Source of the DNA: Thermogemmatispora sp.
Lineage (GTDB): Bacteria > Chloroflexota > Ktedonobacteria > Ktedonobacterales > Ktedonobacteraceae
Assembly (NCBI RefSeq): GCF_019683635.1
Contig: NZ_JADGIA010000016.1
Span: 1 to 44,125 of the forward strand
DNA length: 44,125 nt
Direction: 5' to 3'
Under the pieces are notes generated by a model, which worked only from the letters and a program-made list of their open reading frames with translations, had not been told where the DNA came from and ran no database searches. Position 1 is the first letter of the stretch, and every line of letters begins with the position of its first letter. Positions 5,867 to 13,693 of the stretch are shown in pieces. Both the position numbers and the translations under genes were made by a program.

Positions 5867-6091
5867 ACCAGCAGTCCCCGTATGGCAGAGCATAGGCGGG
5901 AACAGGCTGGATAATTGGCACCGGCGTTCCCTTCATCCACCTGCCGCGAGGTGCAACCCGTTCATACGTGTGTGGCTTCTTTTGCTCGCTAGCTGATAGG
6001 CGAGGCAGAGCAGTTTTCTCTGTACGATCAATCGACCGACCTACCAACCGACCCGTTGCGGTGGTGCGTTCCGTGAGAGACGGAGGAGAGC

Positions 6092-6457
6092 ATGGTTGAC
6101 CTGAAGCAGGCGCTAGGCCGCTTCCTAACCATCCCAGGCGTGAGGATGGCCATCCTTGTTGGACGCGATGGCCTGCTGATCGAGGGGGTCCCCCGCGATA
6201 GCAAGGAGGACCTCGAAGCTGTGGGAGCCATTATGACGAGCGGCCTGAGTGCCGCGGAGGCTCTGGGACGGGAGGTCGCTCGCGGCGGGCTTGTTGGCGC
6301 TCTTGTCGAGTTCGAGCATGGCCTGGTGAGCGCTGACCCCCTGGGCGACTTCGCGCTGATCGTGACGGTGTTCGACTCCGCTTCAGCGCTGGGGCGGGTA
6401 CGCCATCTGGTCAAAAGTAGCCGCGATGAGATCCTCGAAGCGCTCGATATCGCTTGA
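6092..6457 (+). CDS. Roadblock/LC7-domain protein (MglB-like), first of two
   Basis: A single-domain protein of 121 aa. GVRMAILVGRDGLLIEG, then a helix with GAIMTSGLSAAEALGREV, then VGALVEFEHGLVSADPLGDFALIVTVFD, give the strand-helix-strand order of Roadblock/LC7. These proteins dimerise and in bacteria act as partners or GTPase-activating proteins of MglA-type GTPases. GGAGGAG stands upstream of ATG 6092. A second Roadblock gene and an MglA GTPase follow on the same strand, so the three probably act together. It is acidic and soluble, with no membrane segment. Confidence 0.88.
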   Translation: MVDLKQALGRFLTIPGVRMAILVGRDGLLIEGVPRDSKEDLEAVGAIMTSGLSAAEALGREVARGGLVGALVEFEHGLVSADPLGDFALIVTVFDSASALGRVRHLVKSSRDEILEALDIA

Positions 6458-6628
6458 TCAGGCTCCGTCGCTCACCCGCTCGCTCACTGGCTTGCTCGTT
6501 CGTTTCTCTTTCTGTTGTTCATTCTTGCTTCGGTTTGTTCATGACGCCCGCTGCTCGCTGGCGCTCATGAAGCTGTGCCTGTGCTGTGCACGCTAAGCTT
6601 GTTGTACCGGACCGGAGGCGGCGCGTAC

Positions 6629-7123
6629 ATGGAGCAATTATCAAATCTGGTTATTTCGGATCATGAACTTGAGGCTATCCGGGCGACACTGAGCAAGTTG
6701 TTGCACGATACCAGCGCGTCCACGGTGATGTTGCTCGATAAGAGCGGCCAGGTGATCTCTAACTTCGGCAATGGGGTGCGCCGCAATGTGACTTCCCTGG
6801 GCGCCTTGCTGGCCGGCGCGTTCTCTTCCTCTCGCCAGGTGGCCGAACTCCTCGGTGAAAAGGATTTCCGTACGATCTTCCAGCAGGGCATGCACGAAAA
6901 TATCTATACTACCCTGGTCGAAGAGCAGTGGCTGCTGGTGATCGTCTTCGATAAACTGACCCATATTGGCCTGGTGAAGGTCTTGTCCAAAAAAGCTACC
7001 GATGAGCTGGTGCGCGTGCTCGCGCGCGTCAAGGCCGATACGTCTCGCCGAAAGACGTCGGTCATTAATGTGGAATTCCGTTCCTCTGTCGAGGATACCA
7101 TCGATTTGCTTTTCCGCGATTAG
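6629..7123 (+). CDS. Roadblock/LC7-like protein, second of two
   Basis: A 164-aa protein with a longer and more divergent Roadblock fold. SASTVMLLDKSGQVISNFG is the first strand pair, SLGALLAGAFSSSRQVAELLG the central helix, and WLLVIVFDKLTHIGLVKVL the closing strands. A C-terminal extension from about residue 135 ends in SSVEDTIDLLFRD. This resembles the Roadblock proteins usually encoded just before mglA outside the myxobacteria. I chose ATG 6629 over the earlier in-frame start at 6575 because it starts at the domain and has GGAGG upstream. The MglA start is 27 bases after its stop. It is probably a GTPase regulator or scaffold. Confidence 0.82.
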   Translation: MEQLSNLVISDHELEAIRATLSKLLHDTSASTVMLLDKSGQVISNFGNGVRRNVTSLGALLAGAFSSSRQVAELLGEKDFRTIFQQGMHENIYTTLVEEQWLLVIVFDKLTHIGLVKVLSKKATDELVRVLARVKADTSRRKTSVINVEFRSSVEDTIDLLFRD

Positions 7124-7150
7124 GGCCTGCTTCCGAGGTAACTGGTTTCT

Positions 7151-7726
7151 ATGGCTCTTATCAATATCGCTACTCACGAGATCCATTGCAAAATTGTTTA
7201 CTACGGCATTGGATATTGTGGGAAGACTACCAATCTGCAGTACGTGTATAAGAGCATTAACCCCGCTATCCGCGGCGAGATGCTCTCTATCGCGACTGAG
7301 ACTGAGCGCACGCTCTTTTTCGATTTCCTCCCCCTCGACCTCGGTACTGTGCATGGTTTCCGCACTCGTTTCCATTTGTATACGGTGCCCGGGCAGATTC
7401 TCTACGAGCGCACTCGCCTGGCTGTCCTCAATGGTGCCGATGGGATCGTCTTTGTGGTCGATTCTCAGGCGGAAAAGTTTGAGGAGAACGTCCAGAGCAT
7501 CGCCGAGCTGGAGATGTATATGCGTCGCCTCGGCAAGGATCTCGGCCATTTCCCCTTTGTGATGCAGTGGAATAAGCGTGATCTCCCCTCGGCTTTGCCT
7601 GTCCACGTGCTCGACCGCTACCTGAATCGTCGGCGGGTGCCAGCTTTCGAGGCGGTGGCTTCCAGTGGCATCGGGGTCTTCGCGACCCTGCGCGCTATTA
7701 GTAAGAGTGTGATCGCGCAGCTCTAG
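7151..7726 (+). CDS. mglA: MglA-type small Ras-like GTPase
   Basis: A 191-aa GTPase of the MglA family, which sets cell polarity and drives motility in Myxococcus; its role in filamentous Chloroflexota is not established. The P-loop is GIGYCGKTT (residues 19-27). The family-specific segment ATETERTLFFDFLPLDLG follows. The switch II motif is TVPGQ rather than DxAGQ, as is usual for MglA. The base-specificity motif NKRD is at residues 141-144. There is no membrane anchor. Two Roadblock proteins lie directly upstream in the same direction, matching the GTPase/GAP pairing known from MglA/MglB. Confidence 0.93.
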   Translation: MALINIATHEIHCKIVYYGIGYCGKTTNLQYVYKSINPAIRGEMLSIATETERTLFFDFLPLDLGTVHGFRTRFHLYTVPGQILYERTRLAVLNGADGIVFVVDSQAEKFEENVQSIAELEMYMRRLGKDLGHFPFVMQWNKRDLPSALPVHVLDRYLNRRRVPAFEAVASSGIGVFATLRAISKSVIAQL

Positions 7727-11224: not shown

Positions 11225-11692
11225 TTATGACCCTATCTCGGCAAATGGCCCCTCACGGCGGGCGACCATCTCCAGCAGTGCTTGTAAGCCCTCCCGAGCA
11301 CCGCGACGCTGGGTCGCACTCAAATTCGTAGCTGCCTGAAACTCATCCTCGTCCAGCACCTGCACCCTCCCCTGACGGTCAACCCAGACGTCGAGAAAAA
11401 GATCGACCTGCTCAATACGATCGTCCTGAATCACCGCTGGCTCGGCGATGTTGCAATACCAACCCTTGCGCTTGCCATCCTTCCCCGCAATGGCGAAGAT
11501 GTTGAACCAGCGGTCAGTATAATAATACTCTGTAAAGCAGTCGCCCGTTTCGAAGCGCGCGTAGCCAAGATCGCGATCGGGCCAGGTCCAGAAGGCGCGG
11601 ATGATGCAGGTACGCGAGGTAGCAGCGAGCACTTCACCCTGATAGGAGAAGAGCCTCTCACCTTGCGGATTTTTCTTAATAACGGTGATCAT
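11225..11692 (-). CDS. DUF402-domain (FomD-like) nucleotide phosphatase
   Basis: A 155-aa protein whose core matches DUF402: RAFWTWPDRDLGYARFETGDCFTEYYYTD, then WFNIFAIAG and GWYCNIAEPAVI, then the acidic VDLFLDVWVD and VLDEDEF. Characterised members are metal-dependent nucleoside di- or triphosphatases, or act on nucleotide conjugates as FomD does; the substrate here is unknown. I chose ATG 11692 because GGGGAG stands 8 bp upstream and the domain begins there. The frame stays open 50 codons further without domain content. A terminator follows the gene. Confidence 0.8.
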   Translation of the reverse strand: MITVIKKNPQGERLFSYQGEVLAATSRTCIIRAFWTWPDRDLGYARFETGDCFTEYYYTDRWFNIFAIAGKDGKRKGWYCNIAEPAVIQDDRIEQVDLFLDVWVDRQGRVQVLDEDEFQAATNLSATQRRGAREGLQALLEMVARREGPFAEIGS

Positions 11693-11987
11693 CGTATGCG
11701 CTCCCCGCGGCAATCCCACACGGGCCGGATCACGGCCTGCATGACTCATCCGTCCTGGGAGAAGGGTAGCAGCAAGAGTCTGCCTTGTCAAGTGGCGAGA
11801 GCCACAGGAGAAAGCCGTCGGAACGCAATGGAGAGCACTCAAATGGCAGAAGATCCTATTCCCATCGGAAAGGTGAGCATGCTGATGAGATTGAACAGCA
11901 GTGACCAGAGAAGCAAGGCGCTGGCGTTCTGGCCCGGCTCCGCTTTCCTGGTCAAGAAGCGCGCATTAAGCCAGCGCCTGAACTGTC

Positions 11988-12015
11988 TTGCTCCACTCGC
12001 TTGCTATGCTATACT
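11988..12015 (+). promoter_or_regulatory. Promoter of the SerRS-like gene, placed for a leaderless mRNA
   Basis: TTGCTC (11988-11993) and TATACT (12010-12015) are separated by 16 bp. Only 8 bases separate the -10 from the ATG at 12024, so transcription should begin at or next to the start codon. No ribosome site exists in those bases. The rest of 11693-11987 shows no gene. Confidence 0.5.
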
Positions 12016-12023
12016 AACAGCGT

Positions 12024-13292
12024 ATGCTGAGTCTTGATTTACTGCGCCAGCATCCCGATCTAGTACGGAAAGGACTCCAGAAACGCCAGATCTCTGTTGC
12101 CCTGGAGGAGATCGTGCGCCTCGCCGAGCAGCGCGATGGCCTTGCCAGGCGCTGCGAGGGACTCTATGGATCGCTCAAGAATCTGCGAGAGCAATGCCGG
12201 ACAGCTCCAGCCAGCCGACGTGCCGGGCTTGAACAGCAAATCACAAGCATCGAGGAGGAAATTCGAGCGCTGGAATTGCAGATCGCTGATCTGGAGACGC
12301 GCCTGCGCCTGTCGCTCTTGCCATTGCCCAATTTGCCCCATTCTGATGTCCCCACCGGCTTCTTGCGTTCGGCCAATCGCGAGCTGCGCCGCTGGGGCGT
12401 CCCCATGAGCTTCTATTTTCCTCCGCACTCATATCGCGAGCTGGGTAGTAAGCTGGGCATAATCGACAACGTCGCTGGCAGCCGCCTGAGCGGTAGTCAG
12501 TTTATGGTCGTAAGCGGCTCGGGGGCCAGGCTGCTGCGGGCGCTGGTAACCTTTGCCCTCGACTTCTTCACGCACGAGTGGGACTACAGAGAGATCCAGC
12601 TGCCCCTTCTGATGAAATACGGTGCCCTGCTGGCCGCCGGACAGTTTCCACCCCTGGAGACCCAGAGCTATAGCTGTCAGGCCGATGAACTCTATCTGAA
12701 CCCCGGAGGCGCAACATCCCTGGTGAATCTGTACAGCGATATGGTGCTTACTGCCGAGACTATGCCCGTGCGCCTGGTCACCTGGACCCCGGTCTTTCAC
12801 CGCGATGGTGGCTCGGCCTCGCTTCCTCCAAGTGCGGCTCGCCTGTCCTGGCACCAGCTCAGCGAGGTACAACTGCTATGGTTGATTGCCCCGCACGAAT
12901 CATACACAGTCTTGCAAACACTGTTGTTTCAAATTGAAACACTGTTGCAGCGTCTGGAGCTGGCCTATCGAGTCGTCATGCTCTGTAGCGGCCTGTTGCC
13001 CTTCGCTGCAGCGATGACCCTGACTATTGAAGCCTGGCTACCAGCCCAACGCCGCTTTCTCCCTCTGGCCTCCGTAAGCAATTATGAAAGCTTTCAGACA
13101 CGCCGCGCCAACATCCGCTATCGAACCCCCAGTGGACAAATCGACTATCCCCACAGTCTAGGCGCCTGTGCCCTGAGCATTGAGCAGACGTTGGCCACCA
13201 TTCTGGAGGTCTACCAGCAGGCAGATGGCAGTGTGGTAGTGCCCAAGGTGCTCCGCCCCCTGATGGGCCTCTCCTTACTCACTCCACACTGA
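12024..13292 (+). CDS. Seryl-tRNA synthetase paralogue with dismantled active site
   Basis: At 422 aa it has the full length and order of bacterial SerRS. An N-terminal two-helix coiled coil (about 27-98) resembles the tRNA-binding arm, followed by LPNLPHSDVP and a class II core. Scaffold segments persist: SGSQFMVVSGSGARLLRAL, FQTRRANIRYR, and GSVVVPKVLRPLMG. The catalytic sites do not. The serine-binding TAE triad is GGA (residues 228-230). Motif 2 FRSEAG is FHRDGG, with His at 259. The motif 3 GSGLAVGR becomes ACALSIEQ, with Gln at 388. It should not activate serine. The frame is clean, so it is not an obvious pseudogene. tRNA-Ser(UGA) follows 153 bases later. It may bind tRNA-Ser or regulate; the function is unknown. 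Confidence 0.85.
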   Translation: MLSLDLLRQHPDLVRKGLQKRQISVALEEIVRLAEQRDGLARRCEGLYGSLKNLREQCRTAPASRRAGLEQQITSIEEEIRALELQIADLETRLRLSLLPLPNLPHSDVPTGFLRSANRELRRWGVPMSFYFPPHSYRELGSKLGIIDNVAGSRLSGSQFMVVSGSGARLLRALVTFALDFFTHEWDYREIQLPLLMKYGALLAAGQFPPLETQSYSCQADELYLNPGGATSLVNLYSDMVLTAETMPVRLVTWTPVFHRDGGSASLPPSAARLSWHQLSEVQLLWLIAPHESYTVLQTLLFQIETLLQRLELAYRVVMLCSGLLPFAAAMTLTIEAWLPAQRRFLPLASVSNYESFQTRRANIRYRTPSGQIDYPHSLGACALSIEQTLATILEVYQQADGSVVVPKVLRPLMGLSLLTPH

Positions 13293-13371: not shown

Positions 13372-13445
13372 ACAATGACCCAAATGGTATGCTCGTAGCG
13401 GCCCGAACCTTCCAAATTGAAACCGGTTGTGGTAAACTATCTAGC

Positions 13446-13529
13446 GGAGGGGTGGCAGAGCGGTCGAATGCAGCCGTCTTGAAAACGGCCGGGCGATGAG
13501 CCCCGGGGGTTCGAATCCCCCCCCCTCCG
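13446..13529 (+). tRNA. tRNA-Ser(UGA)
   Basis: The acceptor stem GGAGGGG (13446-13452) pairs with CCCCTCC (13522-13528), with discriminator G at 13529. The D arm has GCA/TGC. The anticodon stem GCCGT/ACGGC holds the loop CTTGAAA, anticodon TGA at 13480-13482. The long variable arm GGGC-GATGA-GCCC marks a class II tRNA. The T arm is GGGGG-TTCGAAT-CCCCC. CCA is not encoded. It lies directly downstream of the SerRS-like gene. Confidence 0.95.
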
Positions 13530-13693
13530 CCCTGCGTTGATAGATAGCGGCTGGCCTGTGTCCATAGCCCGGGGGGTGCTGTGGGGACAGCGCGATTTTG
13601 TGTTTATGCGGCTGTGGCCCGTGGATGGATAGGGTCATACTCACGCTATCGAACAAGGTCGTTTGATGCCAACGCTGCTCAACGTTGTTGAAT

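Follow-up and report, generated by a model that had tools for sequence, protein, structure and literature searches.

In ordinary seryl-tRNA synthetase (SerRS), the coiled-coil arm holds tRNA-Ser by its long variable arm, and the motif 2 loop touches the acceptor stem. The amino acid:[carrier protein] ligases have no arm, hold an intact site and are of the zinc-dependent archaeal type of SerRS. HisZ, which we take to be the name of a non-adenylating bacterial protein that inhibits His biosynthesis, is derived from HisRS and works with HisG.

SLIMP is a metazoan mitochondrial SerRS paralogue in which the active site is ablated and the arm is kept. It evolves faster than the active paralogue, and the heterodimer depends on the SLIMP arm to recognise and charge tRNA (PMC10570016). 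In bacteria, albomycin producers have a second SerRS beside the housekeeping one, the two paralogues being about 30% identical, and a synthetase-derived protein without adenylation activity mediates inhibition of His biosynthesis (PMC9437257). For SerRS, the overview in this review lists the albomycin-resistant copy, SLIMP and the carrier-protein ligases, and that list holds no bacterial dead SerRS (PMC9437257). Our literature searches, which covered few subscription journals and in part drew only on titles and the beginnings of abstracts, found no report on a Thermogemmatispora seryl-tRNA synthetase and no bacterial SerRS pseudoenzyme. To judge by these searches, a bacterial SerRS-derived pseudoenzyme has not been described before.

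The window (the whole analysed stretch of 44,125 nucleotides from a Thermogemmatispora sp.) almost certainly contains a gene of this kind. We call the window protein and its Ktedonobacteria orthologues SerRS2, and the Thermus-like copy the other SerRS. The features are:

12000..12023, forward strand: conserved block of 24 bases 5' of the SerRS2 ATG (six-species alignment), with TATACT (-10-like) at 12010-12015
12024..13292, forward strand: SerRS2 coding sequence, almost certainly a catalytically dead SerRS paralogue, 422 amino acids, ATG start
12102..12317, forward strand: SerRS2 coiled-coil arm, residues 27-98, two predicted long helices (27-60 and 63-98)
12318..12431, forward strand: SerRS2 linker, residues 99-136, with 33 of 38 positions invariant within the genus, the highest of twelve segments compared
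12705..12713, forward strand: former TxE motif, residues 228-230, TAE to GGA
12798..12872, forward strand: former motif 2 and loop, residues 259-283, R259H, E261D, R275S, F279L, K281E and E283Q
13062..13073, forward strand: former ATP/Mg site, residues 347-350, EISS to PLAS
13152..13187, forward strand: former motif 3, residues 377-388, HTLNGSGLAVGR to HSLGACALSIEQ
13445..13532, forward strand: tRNA-Ser(UGA) gene, the sole UGA anticodon among the class II-length tRNA matches of the genome

The earlier note on this DNA had read 12024-13292 as a full-length SerRS homologue that keeps the coiled-coil arm and the class II scaffold, and this reading holds. SerRS2 aligns with the serS profile TIGR00414 (NCBIfam) over residues 1-414, covering the whole profile, and its Pfam domains are the N-terminal one of SerRS and the class II core. 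The score of 284.6 bits lies below the curated cut-off of 301.65. In comparison, the intact SerRS2 of a relative (L037) reaches 467.7 bits and the genome's other SerRS 483.5 bits; L037 and L052, the two SerRS2 relatives scored, both exceed the cut-off. The AlphaFold2 model, built from an alignment of 40 sequences, has a SerRS-like fold with a mean pLDDT of 91.3 and two long arm helices, for which the 10-residue pLDDT means are 90-97. Only in the former motif 2 loop, at 262-272, does pLDDT fall below 50 over three or more consecutive residues. When the model was compared with the PDB by Foldseek, all of the 50 matches listed were SerRS chains, a SerRS fusion or SerRS complexes. A full-length arm and a class II core are thus present by profiles, model and Foldseek, and the arm measures 72 residues in all six Thermogemmatispora species. 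P194, the motif 1 proline on the dimer side, is retained in all six as well, and SerRS2 is probably dimeric.

To compare the active site, T. thermophilus SerRS numbering was transferred via the alignment of the genome's other SerRS. We checked 13 residues that we take to contact the substrates: T225, E227, R256, E258, R271, F275, K277, E279, E345, S348, N378, T380 and R386. Eleven of them are absent in all six species. E258 is replaced by Asp in five species, the window's included, and by His in one. R271 is Ser in the window protein and Pro in the other five. Further exchanges are F275L, K277E, E279Q, E345P, N378G and T380C. E227 (E230 in window numbering) is absent in five species and retained in G004, and S348 (S350 in window numbering) is kept in five of the six. 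The alignment of TxE, motif 2 and motif 3 hence bears out the replacement of their catalytic residues, and the three substitutions that the earlier note had named, TAE to GGA at 228-230, R259H and R388Q, are exact. Its statement that every catalytic motif is replaced is right for motifs; for single residues it goes too far, as S350 is mostly kept and G004 keeps E230.

All 13 residues are present in each of the 13 rows of the other SerRS. The 11 lost residues, T380 excepted, are kept in 32-34 of the 34 SerRS2 rows from outside Thermogemmatispora. The T380 position is Ser in 33 of these 34 rows and in all 13 rows from other Chloroflexota; hence, the change to Cys came from Ser. Conservation was counted in an alignment of 66 rows (40 SerRS2, 13 other SerRS and 13 other Chloroflexota), with T380 excluded for its S/T variation. 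Outside the genus, 66 columns are conserved in at least 90% of the 60 rows; all six Thermogemmatispora species keep 42 of these and lack 18, and the remaining 6 are mixed. Losses in all six affect 10 of 12 catalytic columns vs 8 of the other 54 (Fisher p = 1.0e-5), so the catalytic loss exceeds chance.

By its residues, Thermogemmatispora SerRS2 is nearly certainly a pseudoenzyme, and the earlier note's term pseudo-synthetase is well supported; SerRS2 would have lost both serine activation and tRNA charging. It is very improbable that SerRS2 is still an aminoacyl-tRNA synthetase, using a divergent catalysis or another amino acid. The full scaffold and the arm are indeed kept, but the motif 2 Arg, the motif 3 Arg, the ATP/Mg Glu and the adenine-stacking Phe, as we assign these roles, are lost jointly, which removes the class II ATP site.

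Elsewhere in the class, the site of the SerRS2 orthologues looks active, with the exception of one that is eroded in part (L052). On this alignment, the inactivation is a genus-specific event within a class-wide second SerRS. The intact Ktedonobacteria SerRS2 of the window's own family are 46-50% identical to the window protein over the full length, have arms of 71-72 residues and are followed by tRNA-Ser(UGA), but unlike it they keep the catalytic residues. The intact proteins of Ktedonospora formicarum (L126, 49% identical) and Ktedonosporobacter rubrisoli (L127, 47%) belong to the same family. The exception, L052:5980-7254 (reverse strand) of G016, represents a second, partial erosion of the site: five of the 13 residues are changed (in window numbering, E261D, R275S, K281M, E347Q and N380S). 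The incomplete G016 yielded no other SerRS.

Like SLIMP, Thermogemmatispora SerRS2 combines an ablated site with a retained arm. SLIMP, however, is eukaryotic and mitochondrial, and its partner is arm-less, whereas the other SerRS of Thermogemmatispora keeps its arm. In our tree, which was built without mitochondrial rows, the nearest kin of the window protein are Ktedonobacterial SerRS2 (100/100), which would speak against descent from mitochondrial SerRS2. By analogy, SerRS2 appears to be a bacterial counterpart of insect SLIMP rather than a member of it. The amino acid:[carrier protein] ligases have a SerRS fold without tRNA charging (PMC9437257), as SerRS2 probably does, but SerRS2 has the arm and has lost the site. 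The second SerRS of albomycin producers differs in that it works and is insensitive to the antibiotic (PMC9437257). Such a role needs an active enzyme, for which the window SerRS2 appears unfit by its residues. The protein that we take to be HisZ is likewise synthetase-derived, bacterial and without aminoacylation, with a regulatory role (PMC9437257). No HisG-type enzyme partner was recognised next to SerRS2.

The genus holds five more orthologues of 421-422 amino acids, and none of the six species has an internal stop or a frame break. The named members of the set are T. tikiterensis, T. aurantia, T. carboxidivorans and Thermogemmatispora sp. HOG45. Across the six species, each of the 15 pairs gives a SerRS2 dN/dS (Nei-Gojobori) of 0.09-0.19, at dS values that reach 1.18; codon bootstrap 95% intervals for three of these pairs are 0.091-0.175, 0.072-0.150 and 0.069-0.143. 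The other SerRS gives 0.011-0.064 among Thermogemmatispora by the same method. Arm and core are broadly similar (0.08-0.20 vs 0.09-0.16, four pairs). A pseudogene or an assembly error was rejected on the strength of the six species and dN/dS. Because the orthologues stay under purifying selection, with no neutral decay, a new role for SerRS2 is probable in general terms, as the earlier note had supposed; the tRNA-Ser binding and the regulation of serine metabolism that it named would be candidates.

Within the genus, 308 of 421 SerRS2 columns are invariant. The motif 3 segment has 18 of 21 invariant columns, and the arm, with 45 of 72, is less conserved than the entire protein. Nine of the 13 catalytic positions are invariant, each of them carrying a single new residue throughout the six species. 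Since a pure tRNA holder needs no such residues, they speak against a role as holder only. They might instead mean that the old site was re-tooled to bind a new ligand, for example as a HisZ-like sensor, or to run a new reaction; the residues newly fixed in the genus, among them H259, E281, Q283, G380, C382 and Q388, would then serve this function. The well-conserved motif 3 segment would fit, as would the order of events, in which a burst of change came before constraint. We nevertheless regard this explanation, taken by itself, as unlikely. The catalytic positions are no more invariant (9/13) than the full protein (308/421). Conservation of the TxE and motif 2 segments falls below that in each of the three intact genera compared (g4, g8 and g10), and conservation of segment 341-375 below that in two of these, in a comparison of genera that differ in row number and depth. 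The motif 2 loop, which is rebuilt in Thermogemmatispora SerRS2, has a pLDDT below 50. As judged from these columns, the pocket is held about as firmly as the remainder of the protein and is neither free nor specially protected.

A second, canonical serS, which the earlier note had considered, is present in the window's genome (5.4 Mb, 361 contigs, completeness 93%). It is the one further serS match, is complete and lies on contig C210. It encodes a Thermus-like protein. We compared 47 genomes of the class and assigned the two types by score and identity. SerRS2 was found in 40 genomes. The other SerRS was found in 44, in three of them as a partial copy, but not in G016, G032 and G040, which are incomplete genomes (80-87%). 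SerRS2 was not found in G007, G014, G015, G019, G029, G038 and G040, the last an incomplete genome in which no SerRS match was found at all. This Thermus-like type of enzyme is also the one carried by relatives that lack SerRS2.

The locus was inspected in four SerRS2-less relatives (G015, G014, G019 and G007). In G015, the flanking genes are in place on both sides: IMPDH, EamA, HAD, DUF402, tRNA-Ser(UGA), DUF4388, NtrC-like and MoeA. G014, G019 and G007 have tRNA-Ser(UGA), DUF4388 and MoeA in place, the NtrC-like gene is there in G014 only, and the upstream neighbours were not found at the locus in these three. A relaxed search upstream of tRNA-Ser(UGA) gave no SerRS2 trace at E <=1 in G015, G019 and G007, and SerRS2 fragments in G014. 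The decayed copy of G014 (L196, about 6070-6510) lies at the syntenic place, and four other members of genus g10 keep the gene. SerRS2 is hence dispensable in the class.

This dispensability is what could be said for SerRS2 being a functionless, decaying gene in Thermogemmatispora too: it was not found in 7 of 47 genomes, and it is decayed in G014 and partly eroded in L052 of G016. The dN/dS values at dS up to 1.18 strongly disfavour this, and the intact frames of all six species and the conserved block 5' of the start codon also stand against it. We regard it as extremely improbable.

For the origin of the two genes, 98 sequences were collected and 83 used for a tree. The 15 omitted were near relatives and two odd rows, L131 (a very long frame) and L135 (the weakest score). 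SerRS2 forms one side of a branch (97/89), beside other Chloroflexota. The other SerRS (95/71) joins one more Chloroflexota row, L165 (100/99), and next to these stand rows of other phyla. The Thermogemmatispora rows nest inside the SerRS2 of their own family (100/100), on a stem branch of 0.81 changes per column vs 0.12 for the other SerRS of the genus. In line with the tree, the best PDB matches are Aquifex (305 bits) and Thermus (173) for SerRS2, and Thermus (450), Pyrococcus (400) and Aquifex (367) for the other SerRS. Pointing the other way, SerRS of other Chloroflexota are mostly 40-46% identical to the other SerRS vs 34-40% to the window protein, and the lower value is also expected from fast evolution. 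A recent duplication of the other SerRS was tested as the union of the two paralogues. It is unrejected on the full tree (p-AU 0.058) but fails with a pruned set of 57 rows (p-AU 0.005), on which SerRS2 with Chloroflexota is unrejected (0.527); this set lacks the genus, f2, f4 and long rows and was chosen after the full-tree result. With few outgroups, a native SerRS2 displaced by an acquired SerRS is the better reading, though not a proven one.

Taken together, we give an even chance to the explanation that SerRS2 is a former SerRS which no longer activates serine or charges tRNA and which is kept for a non-catalytic task. Ktedonobacteria carry the genes of both SerRS2 and the Thermus-like SerRS; of these, SerRS2 would be the native one and the Thermus-like SerRS the one now charging. 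SerRS2 would thereby have become dispensable, and it is lost or decayed in several relatives. As the sequences show, a burst of change in the Thermogemmatispora ancestor dismantled the site but spared fold and arm, and selection has acted on the product from then on. SerRS2 would now most likely be a dimer that binds tRNA-Ser via its arm without charging it, as a holder or regulator. Against tRNA binding stand the arm, which is less conserved in the genus than the protein as a whole, and the rebuilt motif 2 loop. The role of SerRS2 may lie in tRNA-Ser binding, in partnership with an active SerRS or in a rebuilt pocket. The charge of the arm is uninformative as a sign of tRNA binding because the net charges overlap (-2 to +2 in the genus, -2 to +4 in full-arm SerRS2 and -4 to 0 in the other SerRS).

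A partnership as in SLIMP would make the dead SerRS2 and the active Thermus-like SerRS a mixed dimer in which SerRS2 tunes charging or specificity. SLIMP provides the precedent, having lost the site and kept the arm in a heterodimer with the mitochondrial SerRS2alpha (PMC10570016), and the kept P194 of motif 1 is compatible with it. The other SerRS, however, has an arm of its own (74 residues, L002) and all 13 residues and is only 29% identical to SerRS2, and SerRS2-less relatives carry the same enzyme type. Such a subunit is therefore quite improbable.

Beyond the window's own family, SerRS2 occurs in three families. The one locus of f3 has a full arm, and the 11 loci of f4 have a shortened one (46-65 aligned residues). 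In the three f2 loci, SerRS2 has 24-25 arm residues, i.e., it is arm-less, and the catalytic motifs are kept. These arm-less proteins are encoded at L068:6536-7603, L069:6311-7450 and L070:6271-7512, the last with one of the 13 residues changed (N380H in window numbering). They are of the bacterial type and possibly charge something other than tRNA.

A more specific form of the former-SerRS explanation takes up f2. SerRS2 of Thermogemmatispora might have become a tRNA-Ser-binding regulator with a rebuilt, ligand-sensing pocket after charging had passed to the other SerRS, and f2 might have gone the opposite way, losing the arm and keeping the site. We find this conceivable, on balance rather doubtful. 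If true, one ancestral gene was split into an arm without catalysis and catalysis without an arm, the very halves that are joined in animal mitochondria as SLIMP and SerRS2alpha. In any case, within one class the same synthetase occurs intact, with a shortened arm, without an arm, partly eroded, decayed and as a pseudoenzyme, and in some relatives it is absent; this series lets one trace the freeing and re-use of a housekeeping enzyme. The thermophiles T. tikiterensis, T. aurantia and T. carboxidivorans offer a putative bacterial counterpart to SLIMP in named strains. The case is also a warning that the family-based name serine--tRNA ligase may mask a dead copy.

tRNA-Ser(UGA) lies downstream of SerRS2 on the same strand, 69-528 bases away, in all 25 family loci (window plus 24). 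In f2 it follows at 245 and 32 bases in two of three loci. It was not found adjoining SerRS2 in the f3 locus or the 11 f4 loci, an absence that is weak for L060 and L064 with less than 0.6 kb of contig downstream; in L058 of f4 it is about 1.2 kb away. This adjacency, the intact orthologues in other Ktedonobacteria and the loss in relatives go beyond the earlier note.

The 12 class II-length tRNA matches of the window's genome are six tRNA-Leu and the tRNA-Ser GGA (two), CGA (two), GCU and a single UGA. The CGA/GGA pair is repeated on the short contigs C91 and C354, by duplication or as an assembly artefact. G001 and G003 have one tRNA-Ser each of UGA, CGA, GGA and GCU. A dedicated synthetase-tRNA pair was rejected for the genus because no second UGA copy was found besides the adjoining gene, whose tRNA the other SerRS presumably charges. 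Retention of SerRS2 merely as a leader for tRNA transcription is unlikely, given selection at the protein level and the four gene-less loci that keep the tRNA. As the adjacency was inherited from an active ancestor, it says little about the present role.

Upstream, 21 of the 24 columns directly 5' of the SerRS2 ATG are identical in the six species, and TATACT stands eight bases ahead of the ATG. Further upstream, the gap is variable in its middle and conserved again at its DUF402 end. A scan for consensus promoters 5' of SerRS2 found none. By its sequence, the block 12000..12023 is possibly the promoter of a leaderless or near-leaderless transcript. For a regulatory RNA upstream, Rfam at gathering thresholds finds only two tRNAs in the window.

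The neighbours were rejected as a functional clue: DUF402, DUF4388, NtrC-like and MoeA show no link to SerRS2 because G015 has them without it. The DUF402 protein (11225-11842, reverse strand) is encoded upstream of and divergently from SerRS2, and a similar frame occurs at 20 of 39 loci. At 6092-7726, the window has a run of genes for two Roadblock/LC7 proteins and one small Arf-like GTPase, which we take to be an MglA/MglB-like module; Roadblock/Arf-like frames lie near SerRS2 in 13 of 39 loci, five of them from Thermogemmatispora. In f4 (L057-L067), SerRS2 follows a same-strand open frame of 862-920 codons in 6 of 11 loci, and the one tested (L060) is weakly similar to the acylase PvdQ (71.8 bits vs a cut-off of 950).
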